In this document: piece after piece, positions 8,416 through 35,641 of the stretch | Position numbering within the stretch: position 1 is the first letter of the stretch | Layout of the letters: each line of letters starts with the position of its first letter | NCBI GenBank assembly: GCA_003599015.1 | Contig: QZIK01000058.1 | Coordinates: forward strand, 1-44,044 | Source: Desulfobacteraceae bacterium | Lineage (GTDB): Bacteria > Desulfobacterota > DSM-4660 > Desulfatiglandales > Desulfatiglandaceae | Reading direction: 5' to 3' | DNA: 44,044 nucleotides | The notes under the pieces: generated by a model | The model's database searches: none | Told to the model about the DNA's origin: nothing | Seen by the model: only the letters and a program-made list of their open reading frames with translations | Translations under genes and position numbers: made by a program

Positions 8416-9531
8416 TCAAAGTACACCTTTACTGTTTTCAGGCCGTTCAACCAATTTCTTCACAAAACTATATACCGGAGGACGCCTCATTCCCATCTGT
8501 TTGCGGATACGCAGTATGTCAGGCCTCTCCGGCGGGAAAGGGTAGTTGCGGATATAAGGGCCGGGCCTTGAATTTGCGTAAGGCCTGTTGCACGCCACCT
8601 CTCCGTCATAGCCCTCACAGCCGCTGGTACGGAACGGTTCCCCGGAGTCAACAATCTTGTCCAGATTTCCTGAAGCCTCCCCAAAATCAACAATTTTTCC
8701 ATCCTGATCAAATGCGAACGTTCCCATATAAGACAAGTCATTATCAATCAAATATCTTGCGAGCTGGATACGCCTGTACTGATCTATGGGAGGTGGTTGC
8801 ATATCGCACATGGGTGAATCAGGTTCGGGGAAAAAGGAAAACAAATGGGTCCACCCTCCCATATCTCTAACTCTTTGGATTGCTTCACACATCTCTTTTT
8901 CCGTCTCACCCATTCCCACCATAAAGTGGGAACCGGCCTTTCTTTTTCCGAAGACATAAAGCGATTCCTCCAGGCACTCCCAGTATCTTTCCCAGTTGTG
9001 GGGCCCCCCTATGTATTTACCGCGATACCTGTCGAAAAGTCCCCGTGTTGCAAGGTCGATGGCAACCCCTATCCTGTCAGCCCCGGCATCCCTGTAATTC
9101 TCAAGGTCCTTTAAATCGACAATTGTGGGTGAAATGAGCACTGACACAGGGATATCAAAACTTGACCGCAGCCTCGAGATCACATAAAAGGTGTCCTCCC
9201 TGGCACTCCTGTTTGTAATCATTGAGATGCAGATCCTTTTGACCTTGTCCTTGCGCTCGCCGATCCTCCCGATTATTTCATCCAGGGCAACCACCGGCCA
9301 GCTGACCCTTATGAAGCTTTTCTGCCCATACTGACCGGGACGTCTGCTTGAAAGACCGCAATAAGCACATCTGGCGGCACAGCCGTTTTTGTAGGTAAGA
9401 AGCAGGTTTATGCAGTAAAGTTTTGCGTTTCTGTAAAACAGCCCGGGTTTGATCCCCAGGGTCATTGCCGCCGCAAGACTCATCCTGAGGACATCCGGGC
9501 TTTCCTGTAAAATGATTTCATCATTTGTCAT
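8416..9531 (-). CDS. radical SAM protein, LipS1/LipS2-type lipoyl synthase subunit (which of the two not assigned)
   Basis: CxxxCxxC motif 'CAARCAYC'; BioB/LipA-like barrel; C-terminal Cys pairs 'SGCEGYDGEVACNRPY'; clustered with a lipoate ligase and a second radical SAM gene. Confidence 0.75.
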   Translation of the reverse strand: MTNDEIILQESPDVLRMSLAAAMTLGIKPGLFYRNAKLYCINLLLTYKNGCAARCAYCGLSSRRPGQYGQKSFIRVSWPVVALDEIIGRIGERKDKVKRICISMITNRSAREDTFYVISRLRSSFDIPVSVLISPTIVDLKDLENYRDAGADRIGVAIDLATRGLFDRYRGKYIGGPHNWERYWECLEESLYVFGKRKAGSHFMVGMGETEKEMCEAIQRVRDMGGWTHLFSFFPEPDSPMCDMQPPPIDQYRRIQLARYLIDNDLSYMGTFAFDQDGKIVDFGEASGNLDKIVDSGEPFRTSGCEGYDGEVACNRPYANSRPGPYIRNYPFPPERPDILRIRKQMGMRRPPVYSFVKKLVERPENSKGVL

Positions 9532-9565
9532 CTAAAAACCTTACCCCCCAATTAAGCCTACACAT

Positions 9566-10540
9566 CTACCACTTAGTCGACGCAATATCCAATGAAACAG
9601 AGCAACAGGTCCTCTGAAAAAGTGTTTTCAAGCCAAGTTTCTCAGCATGATAGATGGCTTCATCCGAAGGAATCGCCATACGGTTAACGCCGGCCATTAT
9701 CGCAAGAAGCTCAATCTCTGCCTCACCTCTCTTTCTTGCGCATCCAAGTCCTATCCTCACACCAGGCATCATCAGGCGAGCATCTGCGATCAAATCAGCC
9801 ACCTCCCATGGCGAAGGCGACTGAAAAAACTTCTCTCCAAAGGCAGGAGGTGGCATTAATGCAACGATCACAAGCTGGGCAACTTTGAAAGACGAAATCA
9901 TTTCAATTGCCTTTTTTTCTGACCTCATCATGCCGTAATACATGCCGCATACCACATGAGGAACAATATCAATCCCTTCTTGCTCAAGTGCTTCCATGGT
10001 GTTAAGTATCGCAGATACCCCGAAGTCCACATGGCAGATGGTATTGTAGGTTTGATCATCCCCCACTACATCAAGAAGAGCCTGATCAACTCCAGCCTGC
10101 TTGAGAATAGCTGCTTCCTTACGATCAACAAGACCGCAATGAACTGTTATGTAAAGACCTGTTTCCTGCTTAATTTTTCCAATGGTGTCAACAAACCGGT
10201 CCCAGGGAAGATGCCCCTTTTTATCACAGCCGCCGCTTATCAGCACCCCATGAAATCCCTTCTTCTTGAATTCCCTGCATATACTGAGAAGCTTGTCAGG
10301 GTTAGCCGCATCAGACATAGTATTAAGAAGCGTGCCTTTGCAGTGGTCACACCTGAGGGCGCAGGCTCCTCCAGTTATGGAGACTGCAGGATATCTTCCA
10401 ACTATCCCGTTATAATGAAACATTCCAGGAAGGTAAAAAGTGATGGTTTCCCCAAAAATCTGCCGGGAAATGCCCCATGCTGCCTCCATTTTCTCCTGCA
10501 ATGCCTTATGGTTTGTGTTTATTTCTAAGGTGTTATTCAT
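9566..10540 (-). CDS. radical SAM protein, LipS1/LipS2-type lipoyl synthase subunit (which of the two not assigned)
   Basis: CxxxCxxC 'CALRCDHC', 'ISGGCDKKGHLPWDRF'; start placed at MNNTLEI (10540), giving an 8-nt overlap with the end of the upstream flavoprotein gene. Confidence 0.75.
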   Translation of the reverse strand: MNNTLEINTNHKALQEKMEAAWGISRQIFGETITFYLPGMFHYNGIVGRYPAVSITGGACALRCDHCKGTLLNTMSDAANPDKLLSICREFKKKGFHGVLISGGCDKKGHLPWDRFVDTIGKIKQETGLYITVHCGLVDRKEAAILKQAGVDQALLDVVGDDQTYNTICHVDFGVSAILNTMEALEQEGIDIVPHVVCGMYYGMMRSEKKAIEMISSFKVAQLVIVALMPPPAFGEKFFQSPSPWEVADLIADARLMMPGVRIGLGCARKRGEAEIELLAIMAGVNRMAIPSDEAIYHAEKLGLKTLFQRTCCSVSLDIASTKW

Positions 10541-11600
10541 GGAGTCTTCCGTAATATTCCTTGAAACCAACCCAGCAGAAGGGAAGAATCCTATCAAGAC
10601 AATCCCATCGTTCCTCCATAATCTTTCTACGCTGAACCCCCCTTTCAAGGCTTTCCAAAAACAGGTCTTTCCACTCCTCCTCGTATCCGTAAAGAATCTC
10701 TATATTATCCTCAGCCGCAGCCCTGGCAGCCCACTCCCCTGCCATCTTTCCGCATATGACCGCCTGGGGCACGCCTGCCCCTGTGATCGGATGTGTCTGT
10801 CCGGCAGCATCCCCCACAAGCAACATGTTCCCGGATACAGTCCTTTGAAGTGGCCGTACAGGTATCCAACCTGCCATGCAACCCTTTGTCTTCATATCTA
10901 TTTTTTTTAATCCTTCAAGAAACGATAGGAAATCCCTAAGAGCCTTGTATAACGATCGTCCGTCTCCGCCCTTTATCATACCAAGACCTGCATTGGCATC
11001 GCCTCCCTTGGGAAAAAGCCAGCCGTACCCCCCCACAATTTCCTTAAGAAAATATACCTCTGTAAAATCCATGGAAGCAACGAGAGGAACCCTGGCCTGG
11101 ACAGCCGGGATAAGATCCTTATTCACTGAATTCATCCAGCGGCCGACTGTGGAGCGGGGCCCGTCCGCCCCTATTATTACTTTAGCTTTGATCCTTAAGG
11201 TTTTCCCGCCCAGAGAGATGATCACACATTCATTATCCACCCCAAGGACCCTTGCGTCTGTTATGATCTGGACACCATTCTCCCGGCACTGTCTTGCAAG
11301 TCCCTGGTCAAAAAGGTCTCTCCTTATCATGTATCCTGGAGCCTTATTCTCAATTACTCGACCGTCAGGCAGTATGGTTTTCATTGCCCTTACAGTCTGA
11401 ATAACGGCGGTCGGTTCCACACATGTCTCACTCTTTAGCAGGACCGGTATGTGCTCTGCGCATCGCACAGGGACACCCACTACCGCCTTTCTTTCGCATA
11501 TCACCACGTCCAGACCCCTGGCCTTTACAGAAAGCCCTGCGGAGCAGCCTGCAGGTCCTGCGCCAACAACAAGAACGTCGCAGGTTCTTAAAGACTCCAT
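10533..11600 (-). CDS. geranylgeranyl-reductase-family FAD-dependent oxidoreductase (LipT-like by context)
   Basis: 'DVLVVGAGPAGCSAGLSVKARGLDVVICERK' FAD motif; 'GADGPRSTVGRW'; 'LLVGDAAGQTHPITGAGVPQAVICGKMAGEWA'; 13-nt overlap with the ligase gene. Confidence 0.8.
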   Translation of the reverse strand: MESLRTCDVLVVGAGPAGCSAGLSVKARGLDVVICERKAVVGVPVRCAEHIPVLLKSETCVEPTAVIQTVRAMKTILPDGRVIENKAPGYMIRRDLFDQGLARQCRENGVQIITDARVLGVDNECVIISLGGKTLRIKAKVIIGADGPRSTVGRWMNSVNKDLIPAVQARVPLVASMDFTEVYFLKEIVGGYGWLFPKGGDANAGLGMIKGGDGRSLYKALRDFLSFLEGLKKIDMKTKGCMAGWIPVRPLQRTVSGNMLLVGDAAGQTHPITGAGVPQAVICGKMAGEWAARAAAEDNIEILYGYEEEWKDLFLESLERGVQRRKIMEERWDCLDRILPFCWVGFKEYYGRLHE

Positions 11601-13177
11601 TGAATCTTCTCCGCTACTGAAAGAACGGCCTTGAGAAGCGAAAGGTTCACGCTGGTCTGGGAATCGAATCGTCCCTCATAGGCCTCCCTGGCCTTATCCA
11701 ACTCGTAACAGGTTGTGTTGTCAATATCGAGCAGGATGCCAGGAAGGCCAATCTTTTCAAAATCATCCACATGCTTTGCAAAAAAAGGCTGGCAGCAGCA
11801 GCCTACAAAGGCCTTCACCCCTGAATTTTTAAGCCGCATCAGTTCAGACATGAGGTCCTCGAAGCTTACGATACAGATGGATTTCATCATGGCCCTGATA
11901 CCTATTTCTCTGGCAGCTCCCACCGTGCAGTCGCCACAACCCCTGCATATCTTTGAATATCTTAAATCGCAAGTGGTAAGCTTGGAGCAGTAGGGGAGCA
12001 AAAGTGCTGAAGGTCTTAGGCCAAGGACCTCTTCAAATGATCCGTTTGTCACGGAAATAAGATTGCATAGCTCAAGGGGTATGCCATAGTCTGAAATGTC
12101 AACCTTTCTAAGTGCTTGATCAAGGGGTTTTATAAAATCATCGGGTCCCATGCCCGGTATGGCTATCAGTCCTTGTTCAAAAAAGCGCCTCACGCTTTCA
12201 TGGAGGCTTTTCCTTTCCAGCTTGGCTCCCCTCAGGGCCGCTTCCATATCAAAGAGTGCCCTTGAGGGAAAAGACAGAAAATCCCCTGTTATGTAAACAT
12301 CTTTTATCCTTCTTTGAGGAAGGTTCACAATCAGGGTGAAACGCACCAGACCCGACTCTGACTTATAGGCCCCCTGGACAACCTCCCGCCTCAACAGCTT
12401 TGGACTTACAAGGTCTATCCACTCCTGGGAACGGTAGTATTCTAGTTTCTGTTTAAAAAGCTCCTCCTCTTCACCTGTCAGACCCCCTGGTTCAAGCCTT
12501 ATGGCCAGCGCTGCCTCAAAACCTCGTTTTATAGCCTCCTTGATCTCGGGCATGGCTGGGGTATATCCCAATTCCCATGCAAGGCATGTTACCCTCTCCT
12601 TAACAGAGTCAATCTCCTTGGCCTTGAGCTTTTCAACAGGAATCCGCAAGGATTTAAGCATGGTATCCACGTCAAAATCGGTAAGCATTGTCCCCTGGAA
12701 AAGAAAAGCCGCATCAGAGTCAGTTCCGCCCGTGCCTGAAATCTTTCTTCCATTTATTTCAATATCGTTTCTCGGCCTGAATTGCGCTTCAAGTCCAAGG
12801 TATCGCAGCGCCAGTATCACCGGGTCGCAAAGGGTCCTGAAAAGCCTTTCATTGGGGATCTTAACCCTGAAAAACTCCTTATCACAAATCACTTCCCACC
12901 CAAGCTGGCTTTCATCAAAAAGTATGGCCCCACCTCCTGTTATACGCCGGTTGATGTGGATATTTTGATCATGGCAGTAGTCTGTGCGGATTTCCTCAGA
13001 CACGGCCTGATGAAATCCCACCAGTACGCACCGGGGCGAGAACTGAAGGAACCTTATGGTATTGGGTGTCATACCCAAACCCCGCAACTCAACAAGCGTC
13101 TCATCCATGGCCATGTTTTCCGCGGCGGTCATGGGCGGGGTATCAAGCAGTCTCCAAACTTTTCTTGCTTTTGGCAT
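11588..13177 (-). CDS. lipoate-protein ligase A-like protein fused to a C-terminal Cys-rich DUF116-like domain
   Basis: 'RRITGGGAILFDE', 'RPRNDIEINGRKISGTGG' (LplA core), 'DVYITGDFLSFPSRALFDMEAALRG' (LplA C-terminal accessory domain), then 'LLPYCSKLTTCDLRYSKICRGCGDCTVGAARE...GCCCQPFF' (DUF116-like). Start at MPKARK preferred over the ORF start at 13258. Confidence 0.85.
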   Translation of the reverse strand: MPKARKVWRLLDTPPMTAAENMAMDETLVELRGLGMTPNTIRFLQFSPRCVLVGFHQAVSEEIRTDYCHDQNIHINRRITGGGAILFDESQLGWEVICDKEFFRVKIPNERLFRTLCDPVILALRYLGLEAQFRPRNDIEINGRKISGTGGTDSDAAFLFQGTMLTDFDVDTMLKSLRIPVEKLKAKEIDSVKERVTCLAWELGYTPAMPEIKEAIKRGFEAALAIRLEPGGLTGEEEELFKQKLEYYRSQEWIDLVSPKLLRREVVQGAYKSESGLVRFTLIVNLPQRRIKDVYITGDFLSFPSRALFDMEAALRGAKLERKSLHESVRRFFEQGLIAIPGMGPDDFIKPLDQALRKVDISDYGIPLELCNLISVTNGSFEEVLGLRPSALLLPYCSKLTTCDLRYSKICRGCGDCTVGAAREIGIRAMMKSICIVSFEDLMSELMRLKNSGVKAFVGCCCQPFFAKHVDDFEKIGLPGILLDIDNTTCYELDKAREAYEGRFDSQTSVNLSLLKAVLSVAEKIQWSL

Positions 13178-13368
13178 AGGTTTAATCTTCCATCCTTCGG
13201 TTACCCTGGAAACCCTGCAATACTGACAGTGCCCCCTGGCAGGCGATAACCATGCCATAAGAGCAGGCCTCTTTCAAGCTGCAAGAACTCAAAAAACATT
13301 GTTTTTCAAAAAATCGATAATTAACTTTACGAATCAATGAAAATGCTTGATTAAGGAGAAACAAGGCC

Positions 13369-16510: not shown

Positions 16511-18274
16511 ATGAAGGGAGAACGAATAATAAACCGTCAGACCTGGACCAGCCTGATCTCAAGTGTTAGGCAACTTACCTCATCCAAAGAAGTGGGCCGA
16601 AAGGCCAGATGGCTTTTCACACTACTCATTCTCTTCTTGCTTGGAATAAACGCCCTAAACGTGCTCAACAGTTATGTCGGTAGAGATTTTATGACTGCAA
16701 TTGAAAACAGAAATCGCACCGAGTTCATAAGGATGGCTCTTCTCTACATAGGCGTATTTGGAGCCTCCACTTTAGTGGCGGTAATACACAGGTATACTGA
16801 GGAATATCTGGGACTGGTATGGAGGGAGTGGGCAAGCCGTCAATGCATATATAATTACGCAAGCAACAGGGTCTACTATCGCCTTAAGACCAAGGGAGAT
16901 ATTGCTAATCCTGACCAGCGAATAGCCGATGATATTCGAACCTTCAGCACAACAACCCTATCTTTTATCCTTATGCTCCTCAATGGAACAATAACAGTAA
17001 TTGCCTTTTCAGGTGTACTCTGGTCAATAAGTCCCAGATTGTTTGTTATTTCAGTTCTGTATGCTTTTGCGGGTACCCTTTTTACTTTTCTCCTTGGCCG
17101 GCCCCTTGTCCGCCTTAACTATGATCAGTTGGACAAAGAAGCAAATTTTCGCTCATCTCTAATCTACCTGCGGGGCAATGCCGAATCAGTAGCCATATCG
17201 AGGAGGGAGGGGCATCTTGTAAAGCTCAATCTGGACAATCTCAAAACTCTTGTTACTAATTTCCGTAGAATAATTGCCGTTAATCGCAATCTAAATTTCT
17301 TTACTACAGGGTATAACTGGATGATCCAGATTATTCCTGCTTTAGTTATAGCTCCAATTTTTATTAGAGGTGAAGTCCAATTTGGAGTAATTACGCAATC
17401 AGCCATAGCCTTTACCCACCTTTTGGGAGCCTTCTCCCTTATAGTAACCCAATTTCAATCCATCTCCTCCTATACGGCGGTTTTGGCAAGGGTTGCATCC
17501 TTACTGGGGGCCGGGGAAAGAGAAAAGACGGAGGTAATGGCAAACAAAGCAGTTTGCATTGATAATAATCGCATCGCCTACCAGGGGATAACACTTCATT
17601 CACCTCGAAGCGGGCGAGACCTAATCAAAAATCTTCATTTCGAAATTCCTCATGGGACCTATGTTCTTGTCAAAAGTCAGGATGAGAGCGCAAGAACCGC
17701 TCTTTTTTATGGCACTGCAGGCCTATGGGAAGCAAGTGAAGGAACCATATGCAGACCGTCGCTTGAAAGGGTACTTTTCCTATCTGAACTTCCGTATCTG
17801 CCGCCGGGCACGCTTCGCGAGCTTTTCCTCAGACCATGGCCAGAGAGAGAGCCTGACGAGTTGTTTCTTAAAGGCATAACGGTTCCTGAGGAACGCATAA
17901 TGGAGGTAATGAGGCAACTTGAGATAGATTCGCTGGTAAAGCGCTTTGGGGGACTGGACAACAGGCAGCACTGGGAAAACAATCTGCTTCTTGAAGACCA
18001 GCAGCTTCTTGCGGTTGGGCGCATCCTGGTTGCAGAGCCAAGGTTTCTAGTAATGGATAAACCCAGCACTACCCTTGAACCAAAGAGACTCGACAGGGTG
18101 CTTGCTTTGCTCAGGGAACATTCCATAAGCTATGTCACCCTTGAGGATGCCGCGAATACTACAAGCCTTGAAAACTATCACCTTATACTGGAACTTAAAG
18201 AAGGAGGGACATGGATCTCAAAGCGTGTTAAAGCCGGACGCGTAGTGGCTGACGTAAGATTGGTAGCCCCATGA
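16511..18274 (+). CDS. SbmA/BacA-like or YddA-like ABC half-transporter with degenerate nucleotide-binding domain
   Basis: Transmembrane domain of the ABC_membrane_2 / SbmA_BacA type ('ALNVLNSYVGRDFMTAIENRN', 'NPDQRIADDIRTFSTTTLSF'); C-terminal NBD fold recognisable but lacking Walker A and signature consensus. Confidence 0.85.
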   Translation: MKGERIINRQTWTSLISSVRQLTSSKEVGRKARWLFTLLILFLLGINALNVLNSYVGRDFMTAIENRNRTEFIRMALLYIGVFGASTLVAVIHRYTEEYLGLVWREWASRQCIYNYASNRVYYRLKTKGDIANPDQRIADDIRTFSTTTLSFILMLLNGTITVIAFSGVLWSISPRLFVISVLYAFAGTLFTFLLGRPLVRLNYDQLDKEANFRSSLIYLRGNAESVAISRREGHLVKLNLDNLKTLVTNFRRIIAVNRNLNFFTTGYNWMIQIIPALVIAPIFIRGEVQFGVITQSAIAFTHLLGAFSLIVTQFQSISSYTAVLARVASLLGAGEREKTEVMANKAVCIDNNRIAYQGITLHSPRSGRDLIKNLHFEIPHGTYVLVKSQDESARTALFYGTAGLWEASEGTICRPSLERVLFLSELPYLPPGTLRELFLRPWPEREPDELFLKGITVPEERIMEVMRQLEIDSLVKRFGGLDNRQHWENNLLLEDQQLLAVGRILVAEPRFLVMDKPSTTLEPKRLDRVLALLREHSISYVTLEDAANTTSLENYHLILELKEGGTWISKRVKAGRVVADVRLVAP

Positions 18275-18390: not shown

Positions 18391-21300
18391 ATGCAAGAAA
18401 CAATACTGGATGATTTTGAAGACCCCTCCAAATGGACTCCCTTCTCTTCAGGAAAAGCAAAGGTGCGGATTGCCCGGGACCAAGGCCTGAGGGGCGGGGC
18501 CATGCGTCTTGATTATGATTTTAATGGCGGAGGAGGTTTTGTGGTTGCCCGTAGGGCTTTCTTTATAATAATTCCAGAAGCCTATTCATTCCGGCTTCAT
18601 ATCAGAGGTGAAGCCCCTTCAAACATATTTGAGTTCAAGCTTATAGATTCTTCCAACCGAAATGTTTGGCGCTACAGGATTGAAGATTTTCTATTTCCAG
18701 TTCATTGGGCGCCCTTACTAATAGACGGTAAAGAAATCGCCTTCGCCTGGGGGCCCCTGGGAGGGGGACCTCCACGGAATATAGAGGCCATTGAAATCGT
18801 GATAGCTGCCGGTTCAGGGGGCTGCGGTTCAGTTTGGTTTGACGATCTGGTCATGCGGGACAATACCTATCGAAGGATTCCTGAGGTAACAGCCTCAAGC
18901 ACTATGGCAGGACTCAGCCCCCAGTGCGTTCTTGACTTAACTGACGGACGTAGTTGGATAAGTGAGCATTCCGACAAACAGCAATGGCTTATGCTGGACT
19001 TCAAGGAAGATAGGGAGTACGGTGGTATTGTTATTCATTGGGAAAAAAATCTGGAGGCGCAGAGCTTTAAGCTGGCGATTTCATCTGATTCATTGGAATG
19101 GAAAACGCTTTTTGAATCAAGGCACCGCCCCGATGAGAAAACTTACCTTTATCTTCCCGAAACCGTGTCCAGATATATCAGGCTGGAACTTGAAAGAAGT
19201 TCGGAAGGAAGAGGATTAGGGATAGCAGCCATCCGGATAATGCCCCATGATTTTTCGAGGACAATTAACCACTTCTTTCATCATGTAGCCGCTGATAAAA
19301 GACCCGGCCTCTACCCCAAGTATCTCTTGGGACGTCAGACCTACTGGACTACCGTTGGGACTGGATATGGCGATGGGACTGCCCTTTTTAATGAGGAAGG
19401 AGTGATTGAGGCCTCCAAAGGATCGTTTTCAATTGTCCCTTTTCTATATGTTTCGAATCGGCTTATTACCTGGGCTGATGCAATCATTGACCAGGATATT
19501 AAAGACGGTTACCTCCCCATACCCCTAGCCAGATGGAAAACAGAAGGCATAACCATGGAAATAGAGGCGTTTGCCGGCTACCATGAAAGAAGAACTTTTG
19601 TATTGATAAGATACAGGATCGCCAACATGAATTCAGAGCCAAGGGAGATCTCTCTTTTTGCCTGCATCATGCCATTCCAGGTCACACCAACATGGCAGCA
19701 GTGGCGTTCATTTGGGGGAGCAACTGAAGTCCGGGAGATCCTGTGCAAAGATAAAAGAGTATTTGTCAATGGATATGAAGTCTTGAAAGCCATTTCCCCT
19801 CATGATGGCTTCGGTGCTTCTGTTTTTGAAGAAGGAGGTATCACTAGACATATCAAGTCAGGCGGACTTCCAGAGAGCAGCCATATAAGCGATAAGTTCG
19901 GATATGCCTCCGGAGCACTGCGCTTTAATCTGGAACTGACTCCTGGCTCAAGCCGGGATGTATTTATCGCCCTTCCATTCAACCATCTGGAGAAGAACAA
20001 TGACGAAAGGACTTTAAAAGAGGATATGAATCATGAACCCTCAGCCTCGGAGCTTTACTATGAAGCCTTGAGGCATTGGATGAACATCCTGGACAGAATC
20101 TCGTTCCTTGTTCCCCATTGCCAGGAGGCTTACGTTAAAGCCATGAAGACTTCGGCAGCTTATATTATGATAAACAGGTCAGGTCCCGCTCTCCACCCGG
20201 GTCCGCGTCGCTATTCAAGAGCATGGATAAGGGATGGAGTAGTGATGGGCACAGCTCTTCTGCGAATAGGTTTGAGCGAACCTATCAAGGAGTTTCTTCG
20301 ATGGTACAGCTCGTTCCAGGCGCATGATGGACAACTGCCAGACTGCGCCGACGAGGACGGAATAGAGTGGCTCCCTGAATTCGATGCATATGGACAATTC
20401 CTACATGGAATCACTGAATATTTCAGATTTACAAAGGACGTAGACTTTGTCTCGGAGATGTGGCATGCCACGGAAAAAACTTTAACCTACCTGGAAGGGC
20501 TTAGGAAAAGACGCCTCACTGATGAGTTTTTGCAATCTGAAAAAAGAGCCCTTTACGGGATTCTCCCAGAATCCATGAGCCATGAAGGCTACATGGCAAA
20601 CCCGGTGCATTCCTACTGGGACGATTTTTGGGCGCTGCGGGGCATGAGAGATGCCGCATTCCTCGCTGCCGCCCTTGGGAAGAAAGATGAATCATCAAGG
20701 ATTTTGGACGTTGCCGAGGCATTACGCAAGGACCTTAAAGCGTCCCTGGAGAAAACTATCTCTGACAGAGGGATTGATTACATACCCGGATCAGCGGAAC
20801 TTGGGGACTTTGACCCTGCGGCTTCTTCGATCGGGATCACCCTTCTGGATGGATTGGATGTTCTGCCTGTCAAGGCAGTCCGGCAGACATTTGACATCTA
20901 TTTTGACGGGTTCAGAAAAAGGTCTGCGAATGCTATACAAAGGGAAAACTACAGTGCCTATGAAATAAGAATTATCGGCGCCCTCATTATGCTTGGAAAA
21001 AGAGAAGAGGCTCACGAACTCACAAAGTTCATGTTGAAAGACAGGCGCATTCCAGCCTGGAATCAATGGCCTGAGATATCCTGGAAAGACCCGAAAGCAC
21101 CTGCATTTATTGGCGATCTCCCCCACTGCTGGATAAGCGCCGAATACATCAACTCAGTACGGATAATGTTTGCTTACGAAAGGTGCTCTGATGATTCCCT
21201 GGTGCTGGCCGCTGGTGTTCCTTCCGAATGGATTAAAAACGGTGCTGAAGCAGGGGTCAAGGGTCTTCCAACCTGCTATGGAGAATTATCTTATACCATA

Positions 21301-21495
21301 AATGAAAAAGAACCTGGGACCATACAAATTCTGATACAGGGAAACCTGACACCTCCCGCAGGCGGGATAATCATAAAGCCTCCTCTTTCGCGTGAGATTA
21401 ACAAGGCTTGGATCAACGGTAAGCCTGAAACAGAGTTCACCCATGATTCAGTAAGATGCGGAGTTTGCCCTGCCGAGATATTGCTTAACTGCTGA
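18391..21495 (+). CDS. large (alpha/alpha)6-barrel glycosidase-like protein with F5/8 type C (discoidin/CBM32-like) domain
   Basis: N-terminal beta-sandwich and discoidin-like segment 'QWLMLDFKEDREYGGIVIHWEKNLEAQSFKLAISSD...YLPETVSRYIRLEL'; C-terminal 'RYSRAWIRDGVVMGTALLRIG...SYWDDFWALRGMRDAAFLA'. Confidence 0.7.
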   Translation: MQETILDDFEDPSKWTPFSSGKAKVRIARDQGLRGGAMRLDYDFNGGGGFVVARRAFFIIIPEAYSFRLHIRGEAPSNIFEFKLIDSSNRNVWRYRIEDFLFPVHWAPLLIDGKEIAFAWGPLGGGPPRNIEAIEIVIAAGSGGCGSVWFDDLVMRDNTYRRIPEVTASSTMAGLSPQCVLDLTDGRSWISEHSDKQQWLMLDFKEDREYGGIVIHWEKNLEAQSFKLAISSDSLEWKTLFESRHRPDEKTYLYLPETVSRYIRLELERSSEGRGLGIAAIRIMPHDFSRTINHFFHHVAADKRPGLYPKYLLGRQTYWTTVGTGYGDGTALFNEEGVIEASKGSFSIVPFLYVSNRLITWADAIIDQDIKDGYLPIPLARWKTEGITMEIEAFAGYHERRTFVLIRYRIANMNSEPREISLFACIMPFQVTPTWQQWRSFGGATEVREILCKDKRVFVNGYEVLKAISPHDGFGASVFEEGGITRHIKSGGLPESSHISDKFGYASGALRFNLELTPGSSRDVFIALPFNHLEKNNDERTLKEDMNHEPSASELYYEALRHWMNILDRISFLVPHCQEAYVKAMKTSAAYIMINRSGPALHPGPRRYSRAWIRDGVVMGTALLRIGLSEPIKEFLRWYSSFQAHDGQLPDCADEDGIEWLPEFDAYGQFLHGITEYFRFTKDVDFVSEMWHATEKTLTYLEGLRKRRLTDEFLQSEKRALYGILPESMSHEGYMANPVHSYWDDFWALRGMRDAAFLAAALGKKDESSRILDVAEALRKDLKASLEKTISDRGIDYIPGSAELGDFDPAASSIGITLLDGLDVLPVKAVRQTFDIYFDGFRKRSANAIQRENYSAYEIRIIGALIMLGKREEAHELTKFMLKDRRIPAWNQWPEISWKDPKAPAFIGDLPHCWISAEYINSVRIMFAYERCSDDSLVLAAGVPSEWIKNGAEAGVKGLPTCYGELSYTINEKEPGTIQILIQGNLTPPAGGIIIKPPLSREINKAWINGKPETEFTHDSVRCGVCPAEILLNC

Positions 21496-23694: not shown

Positions 23695-26600
23695 TTATTC
23701 AATAAATACTTCAATCTTAATTGTCGGCTTTTCTCCCCTGCTACGCAGATCGGCAAATTTGATCTCCGCCGCACCTGTTCTGTAAGGGTTACTCCTCCTC
23801 TCGAACGGTATCTCCCTGCCTTCGATTTTTATCATTTTGGTCCCTGAACCCTTTTTTTCGATTCTGTATGTCAGTCCCAAGCGCAAACCTTCAACCTCAA
23901 TCTCTGCCATCATTCCGTCCAGGAATTTTGGGATGACGGGGTCAAAAAGAAGCTCAGATTTCTCCCTTCGAACTCCCAGAAAACATTGCACTACAATCCG
24001 TGTCCAGATACCAGGGCCGCTTGAGTAGATCCTCCAGCCTCCGTCCAGAGGGATCTCACCGCTCCTGACCTTACTGTAATTTTCAATGGCCTCATAACGA
24101 TCTAAAAACGCAGCATCAGAGCTTGAGTAATAACAATTACTCTGTCTCCTTGTCGCCGTTGGAACTATATGCTGGATGCCAGCAGGATTGACCTGGCAAA
24201 GGGCATGAAAAAATCCCTCGGAATCTCCGTAATGTGCGAGGGCTTCTGCATAGCGCAGATGGGCATGTGTATACATTAAACCTATCTCCCGCCCAAAAAA
24301 AGAGGCGCTTTCAGCGCGCTGGAAATTCCTCATAACGCCCCCTCTGTAAACCATGGGCCTGTCAAAAAGCCTTGCACCGTCCACCCCGAGAAGGTTATCA
24401 CTTATCAGACGGAGATGCCTTTCCGCATCTTCCTCCGTCAGCAGATCGTTTATGACTGCATGTATCATCGGAAGCAGCCGGAAGGAAATACCGGTTGACT
24501 TATCTCTCGGGTGGAGAAGATAATCCACACATCCATCTTCTCGAAAATAGGCAAATCCTGCGATAGTACCATCAACAACCAGCAGACGGTTAAATTCCTC
24601 CCTGATCTTCTCTGTCTGACTGGCAAGCCCAGCCGAGCGATCAGCCATTTTCGCTACCCTGAGAGCACAGGCCAATGCCCTTAGTGTCTGATAGTGAAGA
24701 GTGACTGTCCAGGAACTGCACAGGCGTTCCCGCATAGCCGGATCGACTGGCTGCATTGAGTCGTTCCAATCTCCATGGCCGTAAGCCGCAAGGCTGGTAC
24801 CCGGAATCATTCTTGTAGAAATAACGGAAAGTGCGCGATCCATGTGAGTTAAAATATCTGCAGCTTCTGCCTTGAACTCCCCATCAGGATGAAAAAAAGG
24901 GACTTCTTCCCGCAGAATACCGCTGTCGCCTGACGCAATTATATAATTTGAAATGGCTATTAAAGGCCAAAAGACTATGTCTCCATGCGAGTCCGCTGCT
25001 CGAATATTGCGTTCGCGTTCAAAGAATGTGAACCACTGGGGCCAGTCGCCACCAGGGTTTTGTGCCTTGAAAACCCTTACCAGAATATCCCTCACAGGTT
25101 CAAATCTGCCAAGAGCCAGCAATAACTCCACCGGACCCTGGCAGATATCCCTGGTACCCCACCCACCCCCCGTATACTGCTCTGTTCCTCTCGGAGCAAG
25201 GTAGTGAATCAAAGCATTGTGTATGAACCAGGGCATTATTTCCCCCAGCCGCAAAGCAAGGCTTAGGTAGCGGCATTCCTCGGATGGTTGTATCTTTGGG
25301 TAACAATGCATTGGTAAACTTAGTGCTTCTGAAGACAGAGCGGCAATGTCGTCCTTATCTTCTTTTATCAGGTTGCCCCTCAGGACGAAACCGGCAGAAA
25401 GAGCCGGGGATGTTATTATGCATAGAAAAGGTTCATTTCCTGAGCGACCGTCCGGGTACAGCAGCTCATCTCCTCCCACTCTGTCTATTTTTGTATTTTG
25501 TAATGGCTCAATGGAAAACCCTCCCTGGGGAAACCTCCGCCCCAGTTCAGAGTCATGCACAGGGAACACAAACAGGCAGTCCCCGTCTCTGGTGTAATGG
25601 ACAGGGCCACGAATGATGCCGTCATCTCCGTTCAACGCCACATGATTTGAAATCAAAAACCGCGCAGGCACGCCTGAAAGTATGCAGATTGAAATCAATA
25701 TCTCGTGGCGTTCCTTAAGCGCTTCGCATCTGACCTCAAGAATACCCAAACTATGTTTGTATATCCACCTGCATGTATTAGGGGTCATCTCAAAAGCTGA
25801 AGGCACATCCAGCAGACACCAACCATCTGAAAGCTCAAGAAAGATCCTCTGACCATTGGATCTATAAACACTCAGGTAACTGTGAGCAGTGGACAAGAAA
25901 CGGTTGATACTCACATGACCCTGGGTAACCATTGAATTGAAAATACCGGCCATCCAGGTCGTGGTAGTAAGTGATTTCTCATCGGGGACCAACAGCATTC
26001 CAGTACGTAGTATGTTGGCATGAGGCCGCAGGATCGAGAGCTCTTTTGTTTTTAAGACAACATGGCGTTCAAAATCCATAAAGAAAGATAAAAGTCGGCC
26101 CTCGGATAACTCTTCATCAATCCTCTTACCGGGAAACAGATTGCTTATCTCGCTTTCGGTCAAATCAAGGGCATTCAATAAAGGGGCAACGCCAAAGAGG
26201 GTTTCTGACGGTTTAATCCAGGAGACTTCTGTTTTTTGTACTTCATAGGAGTCTTCGGGAAGTCTTAAGACCTTGTCCACATAGTCAAGATCGCTGATTG
26301 AAGTTGATCCCGGGTGATCCGGCTCGTACCACCCGAAAAAGCCGCAATTCATAGCCTCTCCAGCTTCAAGTCTTATTGGTGAATCCTGAATGGCCGCCAT
26401 CGAGTGTTCATGCTGAAGGCGATGGCCAGGCAGTCCGGTTTTATAAAATTTAGGCAAAAAACCTCGCCGGGTATCAAGTCCATGAACCTGAAGCGCATCG
26501 GTTGCGTAGCTTATGCCTTTATTAAGGCTTCCGATCATGGTCCACGGGTGTTTTCCGACCATGGGAAGGTTCTGACGGGAAAAAAGTACAGTGCCTGCGA

Positions 26601-27084
26601 TATTATGAACCAGGGCCGTGTGATCAATGTAATGGCTTGTATAAAACTCGTTGATCCTTATCGCGTTATAATCGGCAAGTCCCAGATCCTGAATGTGTAT
26701 CAGGTCAACGACCCGAGATGAATTACCGGTGTTCATGAGCTTAACATGCCAAAACCATGCAGGAACAGATACGGACAACTTCAAATAGAGTTGATACTCA
26801 ATTCCCCACTCTTTTCCTGATATTCGGAATATACCGCCATCCAATGAGAACACTGAACGACTAGCCGGGCCCAAAAGAGGGATCACCTGGCGCTCTTCCT
26901 CTAGGCGCCTGAGGTAAATATTGCATGGTCCTGCCTCAATCTCTGTACCAAGAAACAAATTCAACATTACTTCATTAAAGAGTATACGCCGGATGGAACC
27001 ATTAGCATTTATCTCAAAGCTCAAACCTGAGCTGTTCCTGAGAGTTACTGGAAAAACCGGTTCAGAACCGTTAAGGCAAGTCAT
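23695..27084 (-). CDS. GH94-like glycoside phosphorylase (former GT36 family)
   Basis: 'YTGGGWGTRDICQGPVELLLALG', 'ADSHGDIVFWPLIAISNYIIASGD', 'YGHGDWNDSMQPVD' match GH94 phosphorylase motif order; no transmembrane glucan-synthase module. Confidence 0.78.
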   Translation of the reverse strand: MTCLNGSEPVFPVTLRNSSGLSFEINANGSIRRILFNEVMLNLFLGTEIEAGPCNIYLRRLEEERQVIPLLGPASRSVFSLDGGIFRISGKEWGIEYQLYLKLSVSVPAWFWHVKLMNTGNSSRVVDLIHIQDLGLADYNAIRINEFYTSHYIDHTALVHNIAGTVLFSRQNLPMVGKHPWTMIGSLNKGISYATDALQVHGLDTRRGFLPKFYKTGLPGHRLQHEHSMAAIQDSPIRLEAGEAMNCGFFGWYEPDHPGSTSISDLDYVDKVLRLPEDSYEVQKTEVSWIKPSETLFGVAPLLNALDLTESEISNLFPGKRIDEELSEGRLLSFFMDFERHVVLKTKELSILRPHANILRTGMLLVPDEKSLTTTTWMAGIFNSMVTQGHVSINRFLSTAHSYLSVYRSNGQRIFLELSDGWCLLDVPSAFEMTPNTCRWIYKHSLGILEVRCEALKERHEILISICILSGVPARFLISNHVALNGDDGIIRGPVHYTRDGDCLFVFPVHDSELGRRFPQGGFSIEPLQNTKIDRVGGDELLYPDGRSGNEPFLCIITSPALSAGFVLRGNLIKEDKDDIAALSSEALSLPMHCYPKIQPSEECRYLSLALRLGEIMPWFIHNALIHYLAPRGTEQYTGGGWGTRDICQGPVELLLALGRFEPVRDILVRVFKAQNPGGDWPQWFTFFERERNIRAADSHGDIVFWPLIAISNYIIASGDSGILREEVPFFHPDGEFKAEAADILTHMDRALSVISTRMIPGTSLAAYGHGDWNDSMQPVDPAMRERLCSSWTVTLHYQTLRALACALRVAKMADRSAGLASQTEKIREEFNRLLVVDGTIAGFAYFREDGCVDYLLHPRDKSTGISFRLLPMIHAVINDLLTEEDAERHLRLISDNLLGVDGARLFDRPMVYRGGVMRNFQRAESASFFGREIGLMYTHAHLRYAEALAHYGDSEGFFHALCQVNPAGIQHIVPTATRRQSNCYYSSSDAAFLDRYEAIENYSKVRSGEIPLDGGWRIYSSGPGIWTRIVVQCFLGVRREKSELLFDPVIPKFLDGMMAEIEVEGLRLGLTYRIEKKGSGTKMIKIEGREIPFERRSNPYRTGAAEIKFADLRSRGEKPTIKIEVFIE

Positions 27085-27678: not shown

Positions 27679-28980
27679 TTATTTCATAAGATTGGGAAGG
27701 AAAAGAGCGATCTGGGGAAAAGGTATAAGGACAAGCGAAAGTACTACTATGGCAATGAGAAAAGGCAAAGCGCCCTTGAATATGCTCTGAAGAGGTACAT
27801 CCTGTACTACACCGCTCACCACATAGACATTCACCCCTACGGGCGGGGTGATGACACCCATTTGGGTCACAAGAACAACGATAACCCCAAACCATATAGG
27901 ATCATATCCCATATTGGTAACCACCGGATAAAAAATCGGGATGGTGAGAAGTATCAGCGCCAGAGCATCAATGAAGCAGCCTCCTGCAAGGTAAATAAAA
28001 ATTATGAAACCCATAACAGCATAGTGAGGAAGAGGAAGACTGCTGACCCACGTAGCAAGTTCGTAAGGAATGCGTGTTACTGCAAGAAAATGGCCGAACA
28101 TCGTTGCTCCAGCAACAATAACCATCACCATGCAAGAGATCCTGGTGCTCTCTTTGAGGGCCTGCATAAGCCCTTTCCAGCCCAAGCGGCGGGTCACAAA
28201 ACCGAGGATTATAGCCCCTCCTGCACCTATGGCCCCTGCCTCAGTAGGCGTAAAAAACCCTATAAAAAGTCCTCCCATTACCAAGGCAAAAAGCAGGAGG
28301 GTTTCTATGACACCTTTAAGAGATGATATCTTGCTTCCGAGTGATGTCCTGGGTCCCTTAGGAGCCATCTCAGGCCGCACCTTTACCCATATATAGACTG
28401 CTAATACGAATAGAAGGCTTAAGATGATCCCTGGCAGGACCCCTGCCACAAAAAGCTTTCCTATTGATTGCTCTGTGAGGATTCCGTAAACGATAAAAAT
28501 GACGCTCGGTGGTATCAGGATACCCAGGCTTCCGCCGGCAGCCACCGTACCGGTACCAAGAACCATGCTGTAATGATAACGCTTCATCTCAGGCAAGGCT
28601 ACTGTGGCCATTGTCGCAGCAGCGGCATTGGTTGATCCGCATATGGCTGCAAAGCCTGCACAGGCTGCGACTGTAGCCATAGCGAGTCCGCCCGGAAGGT
28701 GGCCCACAAACTTATAAGCCGTATCAAAAAGACGCCGGCTGATGCCGGCGTGGAAGGTGATCTGTCCCATGAGTATAAAAAGCGGTACAACTGTAAGGCT
28801 GTAAGAACCGAAAACTGTATAAAAATCCTTGGCGAGCATCCTCAGGCCTCCTTCCCAGGAAACCGTATAGCTGAAGCCTATTACCCCAAGAAGCGCCATG
28901 ACAAATCCAACTGGCATTCTTGAAAAAAGAACAATTATAAGGACTGCCAGACCCACTAAACCAATTGTTGTCGGCTCCAC
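27679..28980 (-). CDS. TRAP transporter large permease (DctM family)
   Basis: 'GFVMALLGVIGFSY', 'GSTNAAAATMATVALPEM', 'GGSLGILIPPSVIFIVYGILTEQSIGKLFVAGVLPG', 'FFTPTEAGAIGAGGAI'. Confidence 0.94.
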   Translation of the reverse strand: MEPTTIGLVGLAVLIIVLFSRMPVGFVMALLGVIGFSYTVSWEGGLRMLAKDFYTVFGSYSLTVVPLFILMGQITFHAGISRRLFDTAYKFVGHLPGGLAMATVAACAGFAAICGSTNAAAATMATVALPEMKRYHYSMVLGTGTVAAGGSLGILIPPSVIFIVYGILTEQSIGKLFVAGVLPGIILSLLFVLAVYIWVKVRPEMAPKGPRTSLGSKISSLKGVIETLLLFALVMGGLFIGFFTPTEAGAIGAGGAIILGFVTRRLGWKGLMQALKESTRISCMVMVIVAGATMFGHFLAVTRIPYELATWVSSLPLPHYAVMGFIIFIYLAGGCFIDALALILLTIPIFYPVVTNMGYDPIWFGVIVVLVTQMGVITPPVGVNVYVVSGVVQDVPLQSIFKGALPFLIAIVVLSLVLIPFPQIALFLPNLMK

Positions 28981-29025
28981 TTCTTAATCTCCTTAATGCT
29001 CTTAATATCATCCAAGGTTAAAGTT

Positions 29026-29529
29026 TTAATTTTTCCATCTGAAACCGGGAAGTTCTCTTCCTGTAATCACAAACCATAGGTCCAGGACAAGCACAAGACA
29101 AACAACCATAGTGGCAAAAGAGATGCCGTAAAGAATTGGATAGAATGGCAGACGCAAAGTCATGGAAACCTCACCTGAAGTGCGAAAGTCATTTCCATAG
29201 CGTATACATTCGAATGAAAGCAAAACAAAAAGAAATATCGCTAGAATATGGGTAACTATGTATAAAAATTTTTGAACCTTAGGCGAAAATAATAAAACTA
29301 CAACATCCACGGCCACATGAGCTCGATGCAGCGTAGTATGGGCAATCGCAAATGCAGCAACCGCAGCGCCCAAAAATTCCACCATTTCATATGCCCCCAG
29401 TATCGGACACCTGAAAAGGCGCATAATAACATCCGAGAATGTAAGTGCTGTCATGGCCAGCAGGGACCATCCGGCGATAAGGTTCAGAAAGTCAGCCAAC
29501 TGTCTCACTAGCCTAGGGAAACCTGCCAT
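29026..29529 (-). CDS. TRAP transporter small permease (DctQ family)
   Basis: Four TM helices; 'ALTFSDVIMRLF...GAYEMVEFLGAAVAAFAIAHTTLHRAHVAVDVV'; adjacent to dctM and dctP. Confidence 0.9.
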   Translation of the reverse strand: MAGFPRLVRQLADFLNLIAGWSLLAMTALTFSDVIMRLFRCPILGAYEMVEFLGAAVAAFAIAHTTLHRAHVAVDVVVLLFSPKVQKFLYIVTHILAIFLFVLLSFECIRYGNDFRTSGEVSMTLRLPFYPILYGISFATMVVCLVLVLDLWFVITGRELPGFRWKN

Positions 29530-29564
29530 TATCCCACCTCAATGAATTAAAAGGTTCAAGAAAT

Positions 29565-29591
29565 AGGGCTGTCGTCCCAGACGACAGCCCT
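29565..29591 (-). terminator. stem-loop between dctP and dctQ (minus-strand TRAP operon)
   Basis: Perfect 11-bp stem agggctgtcgt/acgacagccct, 5-nt loop, 7 nt past the dctP stop; only a weak T tract on the minus strand. Confidence 0.6.
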
Positions 29592-29598
29592 TTCCCGA

Positions 29599-30624
29599 TC
29601 ACTTTTTCCCGTATTTCTTTATTCCGTCCCGGATAAATTGGACGTACTCCTTTCCTGGAAGTCCCTTTCCTTCGAGGACGCCGACATATTCATCAATAAC
29701 GGGAGCAACCTTTGAAGCCCAAAGTTTGCTTTGTTCATCTGAGAGAGGTATAACCTTGTTACCAAGGCTCAGGGTAAATTCCCTTCCTTCCTTGTCAGCC
29801 TGATCCCAACCTTGGCCGTGTTTGGGTATCCACGCACTGCTCACATCTTCGAAGACCTTCTGAACCTCCTTGGGAAGTGCGTTCCATTTTTTCTCGTTCA
29901 TGATCACATACATGGCTGTGGTGTATCCAACGCTGTAACACTCGATGGTATACTTGACCACTTCTGCCTGCTTCCATCCCTTCAAGGTCTCAATAGGCGT
30001 AAGAGTCGCCTCCACAACGCCTTTCTGCAGAGCCTCATAGGCCCCACCCTGTCCCATCGCCACAGGCACTCCTCCCAGAGCCGCTGCCGCCTTGGCACTA
30101 AAACCTGTGCACCTTATCTTGAGCCCCTTTAAATCCTCCAGCCTGTTAATCTCCTTCTTGGCATGGAGAAGGCCTGGTCCGTGTGCATGCAGCAGAAGGA
30201 CCTTAACTCCATCCAGTTCTTTAGGTCTGTATTTCTTATAGAAATCGTTTGCAATCATGGTAGCGGTGTTTCCGTTGGGATATCCCATTGGAAGGTCAAG
30301 GGCTTCCATGGATGGAAAACGTCCGGCTGTGTATGCAAAAAGAGACATCCCTATATCGGACACCCCTTTTATAACTCCGTCGAACATCTCAGGACCTTTT
30401 AAAAGGGCTCCGCCCGGAAAATAGGTAAACTTTACCGCCCCCTTGGTTCTGGTCTCTATTTCCTTTCCCCAGGACTCTGCCAGCTGGTGGTTGAAATGGG
30501 TCGGAGGGAAAAAGTTGCTGTAGGTTAGCTGAACCACATCTGCCTGAACCATAGAGGCAGTAATCCCGAAGAGTGCAGAAAAGAGGGCCATGCCCAATAC
30601 AAAGACAATCTTCTTACTTTTCAT
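29599..30624 (-). CDS. TRAP transporter substrate-binding protein (DctP family)
   Basis: Signal peptide; 'LTYSNFFPPTHFNHQLAESWGKEIETRTKGAVKFTYFPGGALLKGPEMFDGVIKGVSDIG'; 'LKGLKIRCTG'. Confidence 0.93.
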   Translation of the reverse strand: MKSKKIVFVLGMALFSALFGITASMVQADVVQLTYSNFFPPTHFNHQLAESWGKEIETRTKGAVKFTYFPGGALLKGPEMFDGVIKGVSDIGMSLFAYTAGRFPSMEALDLPMGYPNGNTATMIANDFYKKYRPKELDGVKVLLLHAHGPGLLHAKKEINRLEDLKGLKIRCTGFSAKAAAALGGVPVAMGQGGAYEALQKGVVEATLTPIETLKGWKQAEVVKYTIECYSVGYTTAMYVIMNEKKWNALPKEVQKVFEDVSSAWIPKHGQGWDQADKEGREFTLSLGNKVIPLSDEQSKLWASKVAPVIDEYVGVLEGKGLPGKEYVQFIRDGIKKYGKK

Positions 30625-30792
30625 TTTGACAACCTCCTAAGATGAGAAATTATGAAAAGCCGTCCAAGCAATAAACAGCTAGTGTTCTCTTTTCACCTCC
30701 CTTCCTGGAAAATATCGTCTGAAAAGCCAAGACAATATTAGTAGAATACGACTACAAAACAAGCCCTTCCCTGTCAACTCAAATCTGAACAT

Positions 30793-30820
30793 GGTCACGT
30801 CCTCTAAATTTGCACCTTTT
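30793..30820 (-). repeat. degenerate REP-like element copy
   Basis: Minus strand AAAAGGTGCAAATTTAGAGGACGTGACC; aligns to the other copies with one insertion and several substitutions. Confidence 0.4.
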
Positions 30821-30891
30821 ATCGCCCCAATTGTCACTCCGAAGATCCTCGAGGCTGAGGCGGTTTATTCATTTCATGAGGACAAAAAGCG

Positions 30892-30921
30892 TTGACATAT
30901 ACTATAGCCGAACGATAAACT
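30892..30921 (+). promoter_or_regulatory. candidate sigma70-type promoter for the plus-strand TRAP operon
   Basis: TTGACA at 30892-30897, 18-nt spacer, TAAACT at 30916-30921, about 90 nt before the dctP start. Confidence 0.4.
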
Positions 30922-31013
30922 TTCTTCTCGACTATAATTAAAAGGCCGGATTCGTGACCAATGAAATATTTGAACTCCGGCAAACAGTTAACTTATCAAT
31001 TAGGAGGCGCTCA

Positions 31014-32045
31014 ATGAAAAAACTATCGGTTTGTTGTCTGGCATTTTTTATCGCTGTTTCTCTTATTTTGTCTCCCTTAGTCGCTGGGGCCGCTACAGAC
31101 AAAATCAAGTTCGGTCATGTGGCGCCGCCGTTCCATGGGCAGTCAAAAGGCGCGGATGCATTTGCTGCTTATGTAAAGGAGAAGACAAACGGACGTATTG
31201 ACATAGCTACTTTTCCCATGGGGCAACTTGGGGGTGAAAGATCTATGGCAGAGCAGGTCCAGGCTGGAACCCTTCAGATTGCCTCTATAACTACGGCTGT
31301 CATGCAAAATTTTGTCCCCCAGACGGGGATAATGGATCTCCCCTACCTTTTCCCCAACAGGGAGACAGCTTACGCAGTCATAGATGACCCCAAAGTGCAG
31401 GAAAAGCTTTTCTCATACCTTCCCAAGAAGGGATTTATCGGCATCGGATGGACTGAAAACGAACTACGGGATTTTACCAACACCAAGAGACCGGTCAGAA
31501 AACCGGAAGATATAAAGGGGCTAAAGGTGAGAGTTATGGAAGCGGCTGTTTTTATGGACACCTTTAAGCAACTCGGGGCATCTCCTGTCGGCATCCCCTT
31601 TCCTGAAATCTACAATGCGCTTCAGACCGGCGTAATTGATGCCCAGGAAAACCCGCTCCTAACCTCAATTCTTATGAAATTTACCGAGGTGACCAAGTTT
31701 GTAACTCTCACCCAGCATACCATCACCGAGTGCATCATAATAGTGAATCCGGACTACTGGGCCTCTTTGTCTAAGGCAGACCAGAAGATTTTCAGGGACG
31801 CGGCCGCGACAGCAATAAAGACCAACAGGGAGGTAAATGAAGGCCTTCATAATAAACTGCCCAAGCTGGGTATCTCCATTGATGAGTACTGCAAGAAGAA
31901 TGGGATAGAAGTTATCCGCCTGACGAACGCTGAAAAAGAGGAGTTCCGAAAGGCCGTTCTCCCTGTTTATGATTTATACAGGGAGAAAATAGGGGGAGAC
32001 CTCATGGACTTCTTCCTCGGCAAGGTAAAAGAGCACAGACGCTAG
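31014..32045 (+). CDS. TRAP transporter substrate-binding protein (DctP family)
   Basis: Start at MKKLSVCC (31014) after SD 'aggagg'; 'FGHVAPPFHGQSKGADAFAAYVKEKTNGRIDIATFPMGQLGGERSMAEQVQAGTLQIA'. Confidence 0.93.
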   Translation: MKKLSVCCLAFFIAVSLILSPLVAGAATDKIKFGHVAPPFHGQSKGADAFAAYVKEKTNGRIDIATFPMGQLGGERSMAEQVQAGTLQIASITTAVMQNFVPQTGIMDLPYLFPNRETAYAVIDDPKVQEKLFSYLPKKGFIGIGWTENELRDFTNTKRPVRKPEDIKGLKVRVMEAAVFMDTFKQLGASPVGIPFPEIYNALQTGVIDAQENPLLTSILMKFTEVTKFVTLTQHTITECIIIVNPDYWASLSKADQKIFRDAAATAIKTNREVNEGLHNKLPKLGISIDEYCKKNGIEVIRLTNAEKEEFRKAVLPVYDLYREKIGGDLMDFFLGKVKEHRR

Positions 32046-32066
32046 ATAAAATTTTGCCCTGATTAG

Positions 32067-32112
32067 ATCAATGCGGCCCGCACCCTCATAGGGATTGCTG
32101 TACCGCATTGAT
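32067..32112 (+). terminator. stem-loop between dctP and dctQ (plus-strand TRAP operon)
   Basis: 10-bp arms atcaatgcgg/ccgcattgat with an inner ccct-cat-aggg hairpin, followed by the T-rich run tttctttccttt. Confidence 0.6.
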
Positions 32113-32143
32113 TTTCTTTCCTTTCTATGCGGATATAGAGCTT

Positions 32144-32623
32144 ATGCTGGCGAGGATATCACGATTTTTTGACCATATCGAGAAGCAAGTATTGGTATGG
32201 ACCATTCTGGCACTTGCCTTAATAGGTTTTATTCAGGTTGTCTGCCGCTATTTATTTAACTACAGTTTCACATGGTATGAGGAACTGGGCCGCTATTTAG
32301 GCGTATTTATTGCATTTTTAGGAGCGGCGACAGGGGTGAAATATGGAATGCACTTTTCCATGGACGCTCTTTCAAAAAATCTGAAGAAGCCATGGAAAAA
32401 CATTCTATCTATATTTTCCAACTGCACCTGCGCTCTATTTTTCGCAGTGGTGGCATATTATTCCTGGAAGGTCGTAGGAAAAAATTATACCTATGAAACC
32501 ACATCAGCCGCCATGAACATGCCAATGTATTTGGCCTACCTGCCCATACCCGTCTTTTCACTGGTCATGACCGCAAGACATCTCAAGGTTGCCACCGACG
32601 ATGCAAGGGACCTAAGGAAATGA
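32144..32623 (+). CDS. TRAP transporter small permease (DctQ family)
   Basis: 'FIQVVCRYLFNYSFTWYEELGRYLGVFIAFLGAATGVKYGMHFSMDALSK'. Start moved to 32144 because the listed TTG start (32108) lies inside the stem-loop. Confidence 0.85.
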   Translation: MLARISRFFDHIEKQVLVWTILALALIGFIQVVCRYLFNYSFTWYEELGRYLGVFIAFLGAATGVKYGMHFSMDALSKNLKKPWKNILSIFSNCTCALFFAVVAYYSWKVVGKNYTYETTSAAMNMPMYLAYLPIPVFSLVMTARHLKVATDDARDLRK

Positions 32624-33897: not shown

Positions 33898-33962
33898 AAA
33901 GTTGGACCTGCAATCCATAAAATTTTTGAAAACCATGAAATATATTAAGGAGGCAAATAATT

Positions 33963-34508: not shown

Positions 34509-34638
34509 ATCAGATTCTGATTGACAGACAGATTTAACTCCAATATTTACACGTAGAACGGGGCGGTACATCCGATACCATTGAGTAAAAGGAGAAATGC
34601 TTTTTATCCACAATTATTAAGGCGTTAAGGAGGGCAAG

Positions 34639-35634: not shown

Positions 35635-35641
35635 CTGAGTG

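Follow-up and report, generated by a model that had tools for sequence, protein, structure and literature searches.

What can an ABC half-transporter do once the nucleotide-binding domain (NBD) that it carries has lost its catalytic motifs? This question is raised by the open reading frame at 16511-18274 (+ strand) of the window, by which we mean the whole 44,044-nucleotide stretch of Desulfobacteraceae DNA analysed here. The initial annotation had described an intact frame, and this was borne out: a single uninterrupted ORF holds 587 codons for residues, and all the motif strings quoted earlier were found in it. The 587-aa product is a half-transporter of the YddA/Rv1819c/ABCD-like (PF06472) kind with a pseudo-NBD. 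Its transmembrane domain (TMD; residues 1-330, 16511-17500, +) matched PF06472 (ABC_membrane_2) at residues 30-284 with an E-value of 9.3e-39, far over the cut-off. No Pfam match to the NBD family ABC_tran was obtained for the protein. A phmmer search aligned residues 34-575 with Rv1819c (6tqe; 4e-45), that is, through the collinear C-terminal NBD, and ABCD-family proteins also aligned with the NBD included. The pseudo-NBD (residues 345-580, 17543-18250, +) aligned to intact NBDs over its full length, suggesting that the fold is retained. The motif NPDQRIADD (16907-16933, +), which is coupling helix 1 by homology, is kept despite the dead NBD.

We read the motif losses from an alignment of the window protein to intact relatives. 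The Walker A consensus GxxGxGK[S/T] aligned with S389-Q-D-E392-S-A394-R395-T396 (remnant SQDESARTA, 17675-17701, +), so that the P-loop glycines and the lysine are gone, with Glu in place of G4, Ala in place of G6 and Arg in place of the Lys. The Q-loop Gln is replaced by Glu (E426, 17786-17788, +), and the signature, LSxGEQQ in intact relatives, reads LLLEDQQ (residues 492-498, 17984-18004, +). Walker B, LVMDK (18047-18061, +), retains its Asp (D516), with the catalytic Glu changed to Lys (K517), and the switch-His position is occupied by Glu (E545, 18143-18145, +). The earlier claim that the catalytic motifs had disappeared thus holds for Walker A, the signature, the catalytic Glu and the switch His alike.

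One scan of bacterial genomes yielded 45 homologues of 42-80% identity from many genera, none of which had an intact NBD (0/45). We enlarged this set to 51 by adding sequences from other genomes; it covers Thermodesulfobacteriota, alpha- and gammaproteobacteria and others, again with no intact NBD. An intact Walker A GxxGxGK[S/T], the catalytic Glu and the switch His were each found in 0/51 members, and the degenerate motifs are conserved across orthologues in a recurring form. The fourth P-loop position is E/D in 38 of the 51 and the sixth is Ala in 43; Glu replaces the Q-loop Gln in 33, the catalytic Glu position is Arg, Lys or His in 50, and the switch-His position is acidic in 41. The Walker B acid is retained across the clade (D in 37, E in 14), and the coupling-helix motif PDQRI..D is invariant (51/51). 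One idea is that an internal salt bridge could link the P-loop, now acidic, to the basic residue in Walker B. The degeneration is graded: the Walker A Lys is still present in 13/51 and the signature Gly in 19/51, and some members may therefore still bind nucleotide. The branch that includes the window protein is the more strongly degraded one.

We built a tree from the TMD alone, which kept the columns of the NBD trait itself out of tree building. In this tree, the 51 pseudo-NBD homologues formed one clade (UFB/SH-aLRT 100/100), and its sister was a pair of intact proteins, L086 and L118 (100/99). E. coli YddA is remote from both the clade and this glycan-linked sister lineage. We looked for intact orthologues among close relatives and found none; the nearest intact proteins are those of the sister clade, at about 35-37% identity. 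The tree shows the pseudo clade arising from an intact glycan-linked lineage, with a single origin of NBD loss there as far as the sequences indicate. One member, L079, comes from a contig labelled Mycobacterium sp. KBS0706; it is nested beside rhizobial pseudo-transporters and has a phosphoketolase neighbour, and the label looks doubtful. In the openly accessible literature that was searched, we found no description of a pseudo-NBD YddA family or of its glucan link. The present labels 'ABC transporter ATP-binding protein/permease' and 'SbmA/BacA-like transporter' are misleading for this clade.

Five further proteins (L135-L137, L139 and L140) carry another dead NBD, with a GNAxTGAK-type P-loop and FLQE at Walker B. 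A single origin of all pseudo-NBDs was rejected (AU p = 0.00019 for joining this second lineage to the first clade). Its loci with flanks (L155-L159) contain a GH5-like hydrolase in 5/5 cases and a GH1 in 2/5. Because joining the two pseudo clades was rejected, the ATPase appears to have been lost at least twice among YddA-like transporters, each time beside beta-glycosidases.

The initial annotation had also held that the pseudo-NBD is maintained by selection and is not decaying. NG86 dN/dS was 0.045-0.36 for the pseudo-NBD and 0.015-0.16 for the TMD, ranges that come from clade pairs with usable dS, as synonymous sites were saturated in the window pair. Purifying selection therefore acts on the pseudo-NBD, more loosely than on the TMD. 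The NBD also evolves faster than the TMD in intact pairs, so the rate ratio alone is no proof of relaxed constraint. Invariant columns numbered 47 in the TMD and 65 in the NBD of 12 intact relatives, versus 84 and 20 in 12 spread pseudo members, which is indicative of a shift of constraint from NBD to TMD, the two sets differing in divergence. Conservation in the clade is highest in the TMD, which holds 88 of the 108 columns with at least 94% conservation. With 51 members, no intact NBD and purifying selection on the domain, the claim of maintenance is upheld, the non-hydrolysing state itself being read from sequence. A sequencing error or a recent pseudogene is ruled out, since the 45 homologues share the dead state and it is under purifying selection.

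We then considered the genes around the transporter. The next gene encodes a glycosidase-like protein that we label GH_c2 (18391-21495, +), with an F5/8C carbohydrate-binding-like domain and a weak amylo-1,6-glucosidase/GH15-like barrel. It gave a weak GDE_C/oligosaccharide-amylase match and shows no visible signal peptide, and a PDB sequence search picked up only its F5/8C domain, which is CBM32-like, and, very weakly, the barrel. GH_c2 is possibly an undescribed glycoside hydrolase family, with an (alpha/alpha)6-type barrel signal. Downstream, on the opposite strand, lies a GH94-related homologue of 1,2-beta-oligoglucan phosphorylase (SOGP; 23695-27084, -; SOGP_N 4e-62; PDB 5h3z 8e-183). The closest relative, from the same genus, has its copy of GH_c2 divided between two frames (L037, 3913-7018) by a frameshift or an assembly error.

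Elsewhere in the window, a lipoate-assembly locus (8416-13258, -) encodes two radical SAM proteins, LipS2-like and LipS1-like, whose scores fall slightly short of the NCBIfam cut-offs; a geranylgeranyl-reductase-family flavoprotein is encoded between them, and the locus also includes a fusion of a lipoate-protein ligase with a DUF116 domain. Three consecutive TRAP transporter systems occupy 27679-38091; by eye, two are DctPQM-like sets, and the third is of TAXI type with a fused permease.

The pairing of transporter and glucan enzyme, which the initial annotation had not noticed, recurs well beyond the window. Among 395 genomes of the phylum, GH_c2 occurred in nine, namely all eight with a pseudo-transporter and G076, where GH_c2 adjoins the intact sister transporter L118. 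SOGP exceeded its cut-off in six genomes, all within those eight. In other classes, GH_c2 was present in 9/10 non-rhizobial pseudo-transporter genomes, the tenth being a fragmentary MAG. Rhizobia have instead a stand-alone GH94 matching the C-terminal half of NdvB (8rf9, E=0), together with GH144-like PF10091 proteins related to endo-beta-1,2-glucanase (5gzh, 2e-32), and in Chromatiaceae GH1, MdoG and MdoH take the place of GH_c2. Rhizobial transporters (L060-L081) also adjoin genes for phosphoketolase, glycogen phosphorylase and a CBS/BON-domain protein. Overall, a glucan-type enzyme was in reach at 31/48 pseudo loci versus 1/12 intact loci, the one being the sister (Fisher p = 7e-4, uncorrected for relatedness and with the families picked after seeing the loci). 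No glucan enzyme was found within 6 kb of L038, L039, L040, L041 and L046. These results show that the partnership of transporter and glucan enzyme is older than the loss of the NBD. By eye, SOGP and 8/9 GH_c2 proteins have no obvious signal peptide, and the sugar chemistry should therefore be cytosolic; one GH_c2 paralogue, L054, does have a signal peptide.

From this material we infer transport activity, a homodimer, the substrate, an inward direction, an energy source and a structural role for the pseudo-NBD. The reading that we favour, with confidence a little short of even, is that the protein works as a homodimer and carries beta-1,2-glucan-type oligosaccharides independently of ATP, probably inward, with cytosolic phosphorolysis as the pull. 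The ancestor would have been an ATP-driven YddA/Rv1819c-like half-transporter already paired with the same glycosidase. Its NBD would have been disarmed a single time, before the clade diversified, with the P-loop becoming acidic, the catalytic Glu basic and the switch His acidic, and would have stayed as a folded, docked piece of the dimer. Linear, cyclic or osmoregulated-periplasmic-glucan-like beta-1,2-glucan-type oligosaccharides would bind from the periplasmic side, and the TMD would switch access without ATP, by facilitated diffusion or by coupling to some ion. Hydrolysis and cytosolic phosphorolysis, the latter yielding glucose-1-phosphate, would then trap the sugar and draw it inward.

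Transport through ABC-type membrane domains without ATP has precedents. MsbA and LmrA without their NBDs moved drugs using the proton gradient (PMC4979069). These proteins, MsbA-MD and LmrA-MD, are laboratory truncations, whereas the pseudo clade, for which ATP-free transport is only suggested, is natural and keeps its NBD in a disarmed form. A D-loop mutant of TAP is cited in PMC10960864 as having become a facilitator uncoupled from ATP hydrolysis. Mycobacterial BacA, the nearest ATP-driven relative, is itself out of the ordinary in that it moves cobalamin in both directions (PMC10960864), so that a slide from ATP-gated to ATP-free diffusion is plausible.

Among the alternatives, the one that survives best is that the protein is the degenerate half of an ATP-driven heterodimer, as in TAP, TM287/288 and BmrCD, with an intact half-transporter as partner or a recruited separate NBD. 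Degenerate sites in ABC exporters normally occur in heterodimers whose other site works (PMC7756269), the coupling helices and a dimer-sized length are still present in the pseudo-NBD protein, and other ABC exporters exist in the genomes. A partner could come from another ABC subfamily elsewhere in the genome. However, no second PF06472 protein was found in seven of the genomes searched (G000, G001, G041, G044, G045, G047 and G048), where the pseudo-transporter was the single match. These include the genome of the window (G000, a MAG of 66% completeness), G001 (97%), Methylococcus capsulatus (G047) and Allochromatium humboldtianum (G048), and a heterodimer with a PF06472 partner is ruled out for all seven. 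Likewise, no conserved intact ABC NBD lay within 6 kb of the 48 pseudo loci, where we found two unrelated ones, in closely related rhizobia. TAP, TM287/288, TmrAB and BmrCD share with the pseudo clade, judging from its sequences, an NBD unable to hydrolyse ATP, but they keep one canonical site, whereas in several genomes the pseudo-transporter is the family's only representative, and nothing canonical remains in it. The window protein has damage in both Walker A and the signature, which would leave a heterodimer without a canonical composite site. We consider this explanation unlikely.

A second alternative concerns direction. NdvA/Cgt is an ATP-driven exporter of cyclic beta-1,2-glucan from a different ABC subfamily, and it resembles the pseudo clade in presumed substrate class, unlike it in subfamily and in being an ATP-driven exporter. 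The pseudo-transporter could replace the NdvA/Cgt type as a beta-1,2-glucan exporter or flippase driven by membrane potential or by synthesis; the structure of NdvA/Cgt is mentioned in PMC11842490. MdoG and MdoH adjoin the locus in Chromatiaceae, a stand-alone NdvB-type GH94 is found in rhizobia, and glycoside phosphorylases are reversible (PMC11842490). With these MdoG/MdoH and CGS-like pieces, a role of the locus in export or in the synthesis of glucan is just as conceivable. Known members of SOGP, of GH_c2 (at the window locus) and of GH1 (elsewhere) are degradative, however, and MdoH itself already carries its product across the membrane (PMC11842490). Export therefore seems quite unlikely compared with the ATP-independent import that we prefer.

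The initial annotation had placed the protein between ATP-driven YddA-like and proton-driven SbmA-like transporters, and this proposal was not supported by the comparison. SbmA and BacA belong to the SLiPTs, which have a related TMD and are descendants of a YddA-like ancestor in the phylogeny of PMC13316013; a weak PF05992 match (3e-15) of the window protein also speaks for such a relationship. ATP-free work has been shown for SLiPTs and is suggested for the pseudo clade. SLiPTs lack both the NBD and the coupling helices (PMC13316013) and have an extra TM0 and a proton ladder of six glutamates, E193, E203, E269, E276, E287 and E378 in SbmA (PMC13316013), whereas the pseudo clade retains its NBD and coupling helix. 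Counterparts of only 193 (as D/E) and 276 exist in the clade, and YddA has both too; 203 is L, 269 is N, 287 is R and 378 is S/N/A, so that the ladder is less complete here than in YddA. Without the SbmA proton ladder, the clade has no recognised ion pathway, which also counts against the reading that we favour. Asp208 (17132-17134, +), two residues ahead of the conserved E210 and adjoining the E276 counterpart, is D throughout the pseudo clade and R/Q/A in intact relatives, which makes it a candidate functional change and no more. Moreover, the pseudo clade has a separate origin, from the intact glycan-linked lineage far from E. coli YddA. It is thus very improbable that the protein is proton-driven like SbmA/BacA and represents a step between YddA and SbmA. 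The nearer comparison is with Rv1819c/mycobacterial BacA (6tqe), YddA and BclA, full-length type IV ABC importers of the COG4178/PF06472 type, of which Rv1819c is the best relative with a solved structure. They share fold layout, TMD family, coupling helix and NBD length with the pseudo clade, but they need ATP and have a working Walker A/B, signature and switch His, all lost in the window protein. The cargo of Rv1819c is cobalamin and peptides; the pseudo clade is tied to glucan enzymes instead.

The loss of the motor and the strict genetic partnership with cytosolic glycosidases would also suit a protein that is no longer a transporter and acts as a membrane scaffold or glucan sensor holding cytosolic glucan enzymes at the membrane, but this is hard to credit when constraint is strongest in the TMD, where many polar and charged positions are conserved across the membrane domain.

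The ATP-independent glucan transporter that we favour may represent something broader. We put forward tentatively, and would not be surprised to see it fail, that there is a natural class of homodimeric ABC transporters with two dead NBDs and at least two origins in glycoside-hydrolase-linked YddA-like lineages, in which oligosaccharide transport is metabolically pulled and free of ATP and the NBD pair serves as a structural or regulatory clamp. If true, this would be a third way to energise the ABC fold, distinct from the use of ATP by ABC transporters and of protons by SLiPTs. The clade also provides natural before-and-after pairs, in which the intact sister (L118 in G076) is set against disarmed relatives with the same partner glycosidase. 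Such pairs open to direct test the long-debated matter of how far an ABC TMD can transport without ATP, and what use there is for an NBD unable to bind or burn nucleotide. For the many bacteria that lack a described inner-membrane route for beta-1,2-glucan oligosaccharides, the pseudo-NBD protein is a candidate transporter.
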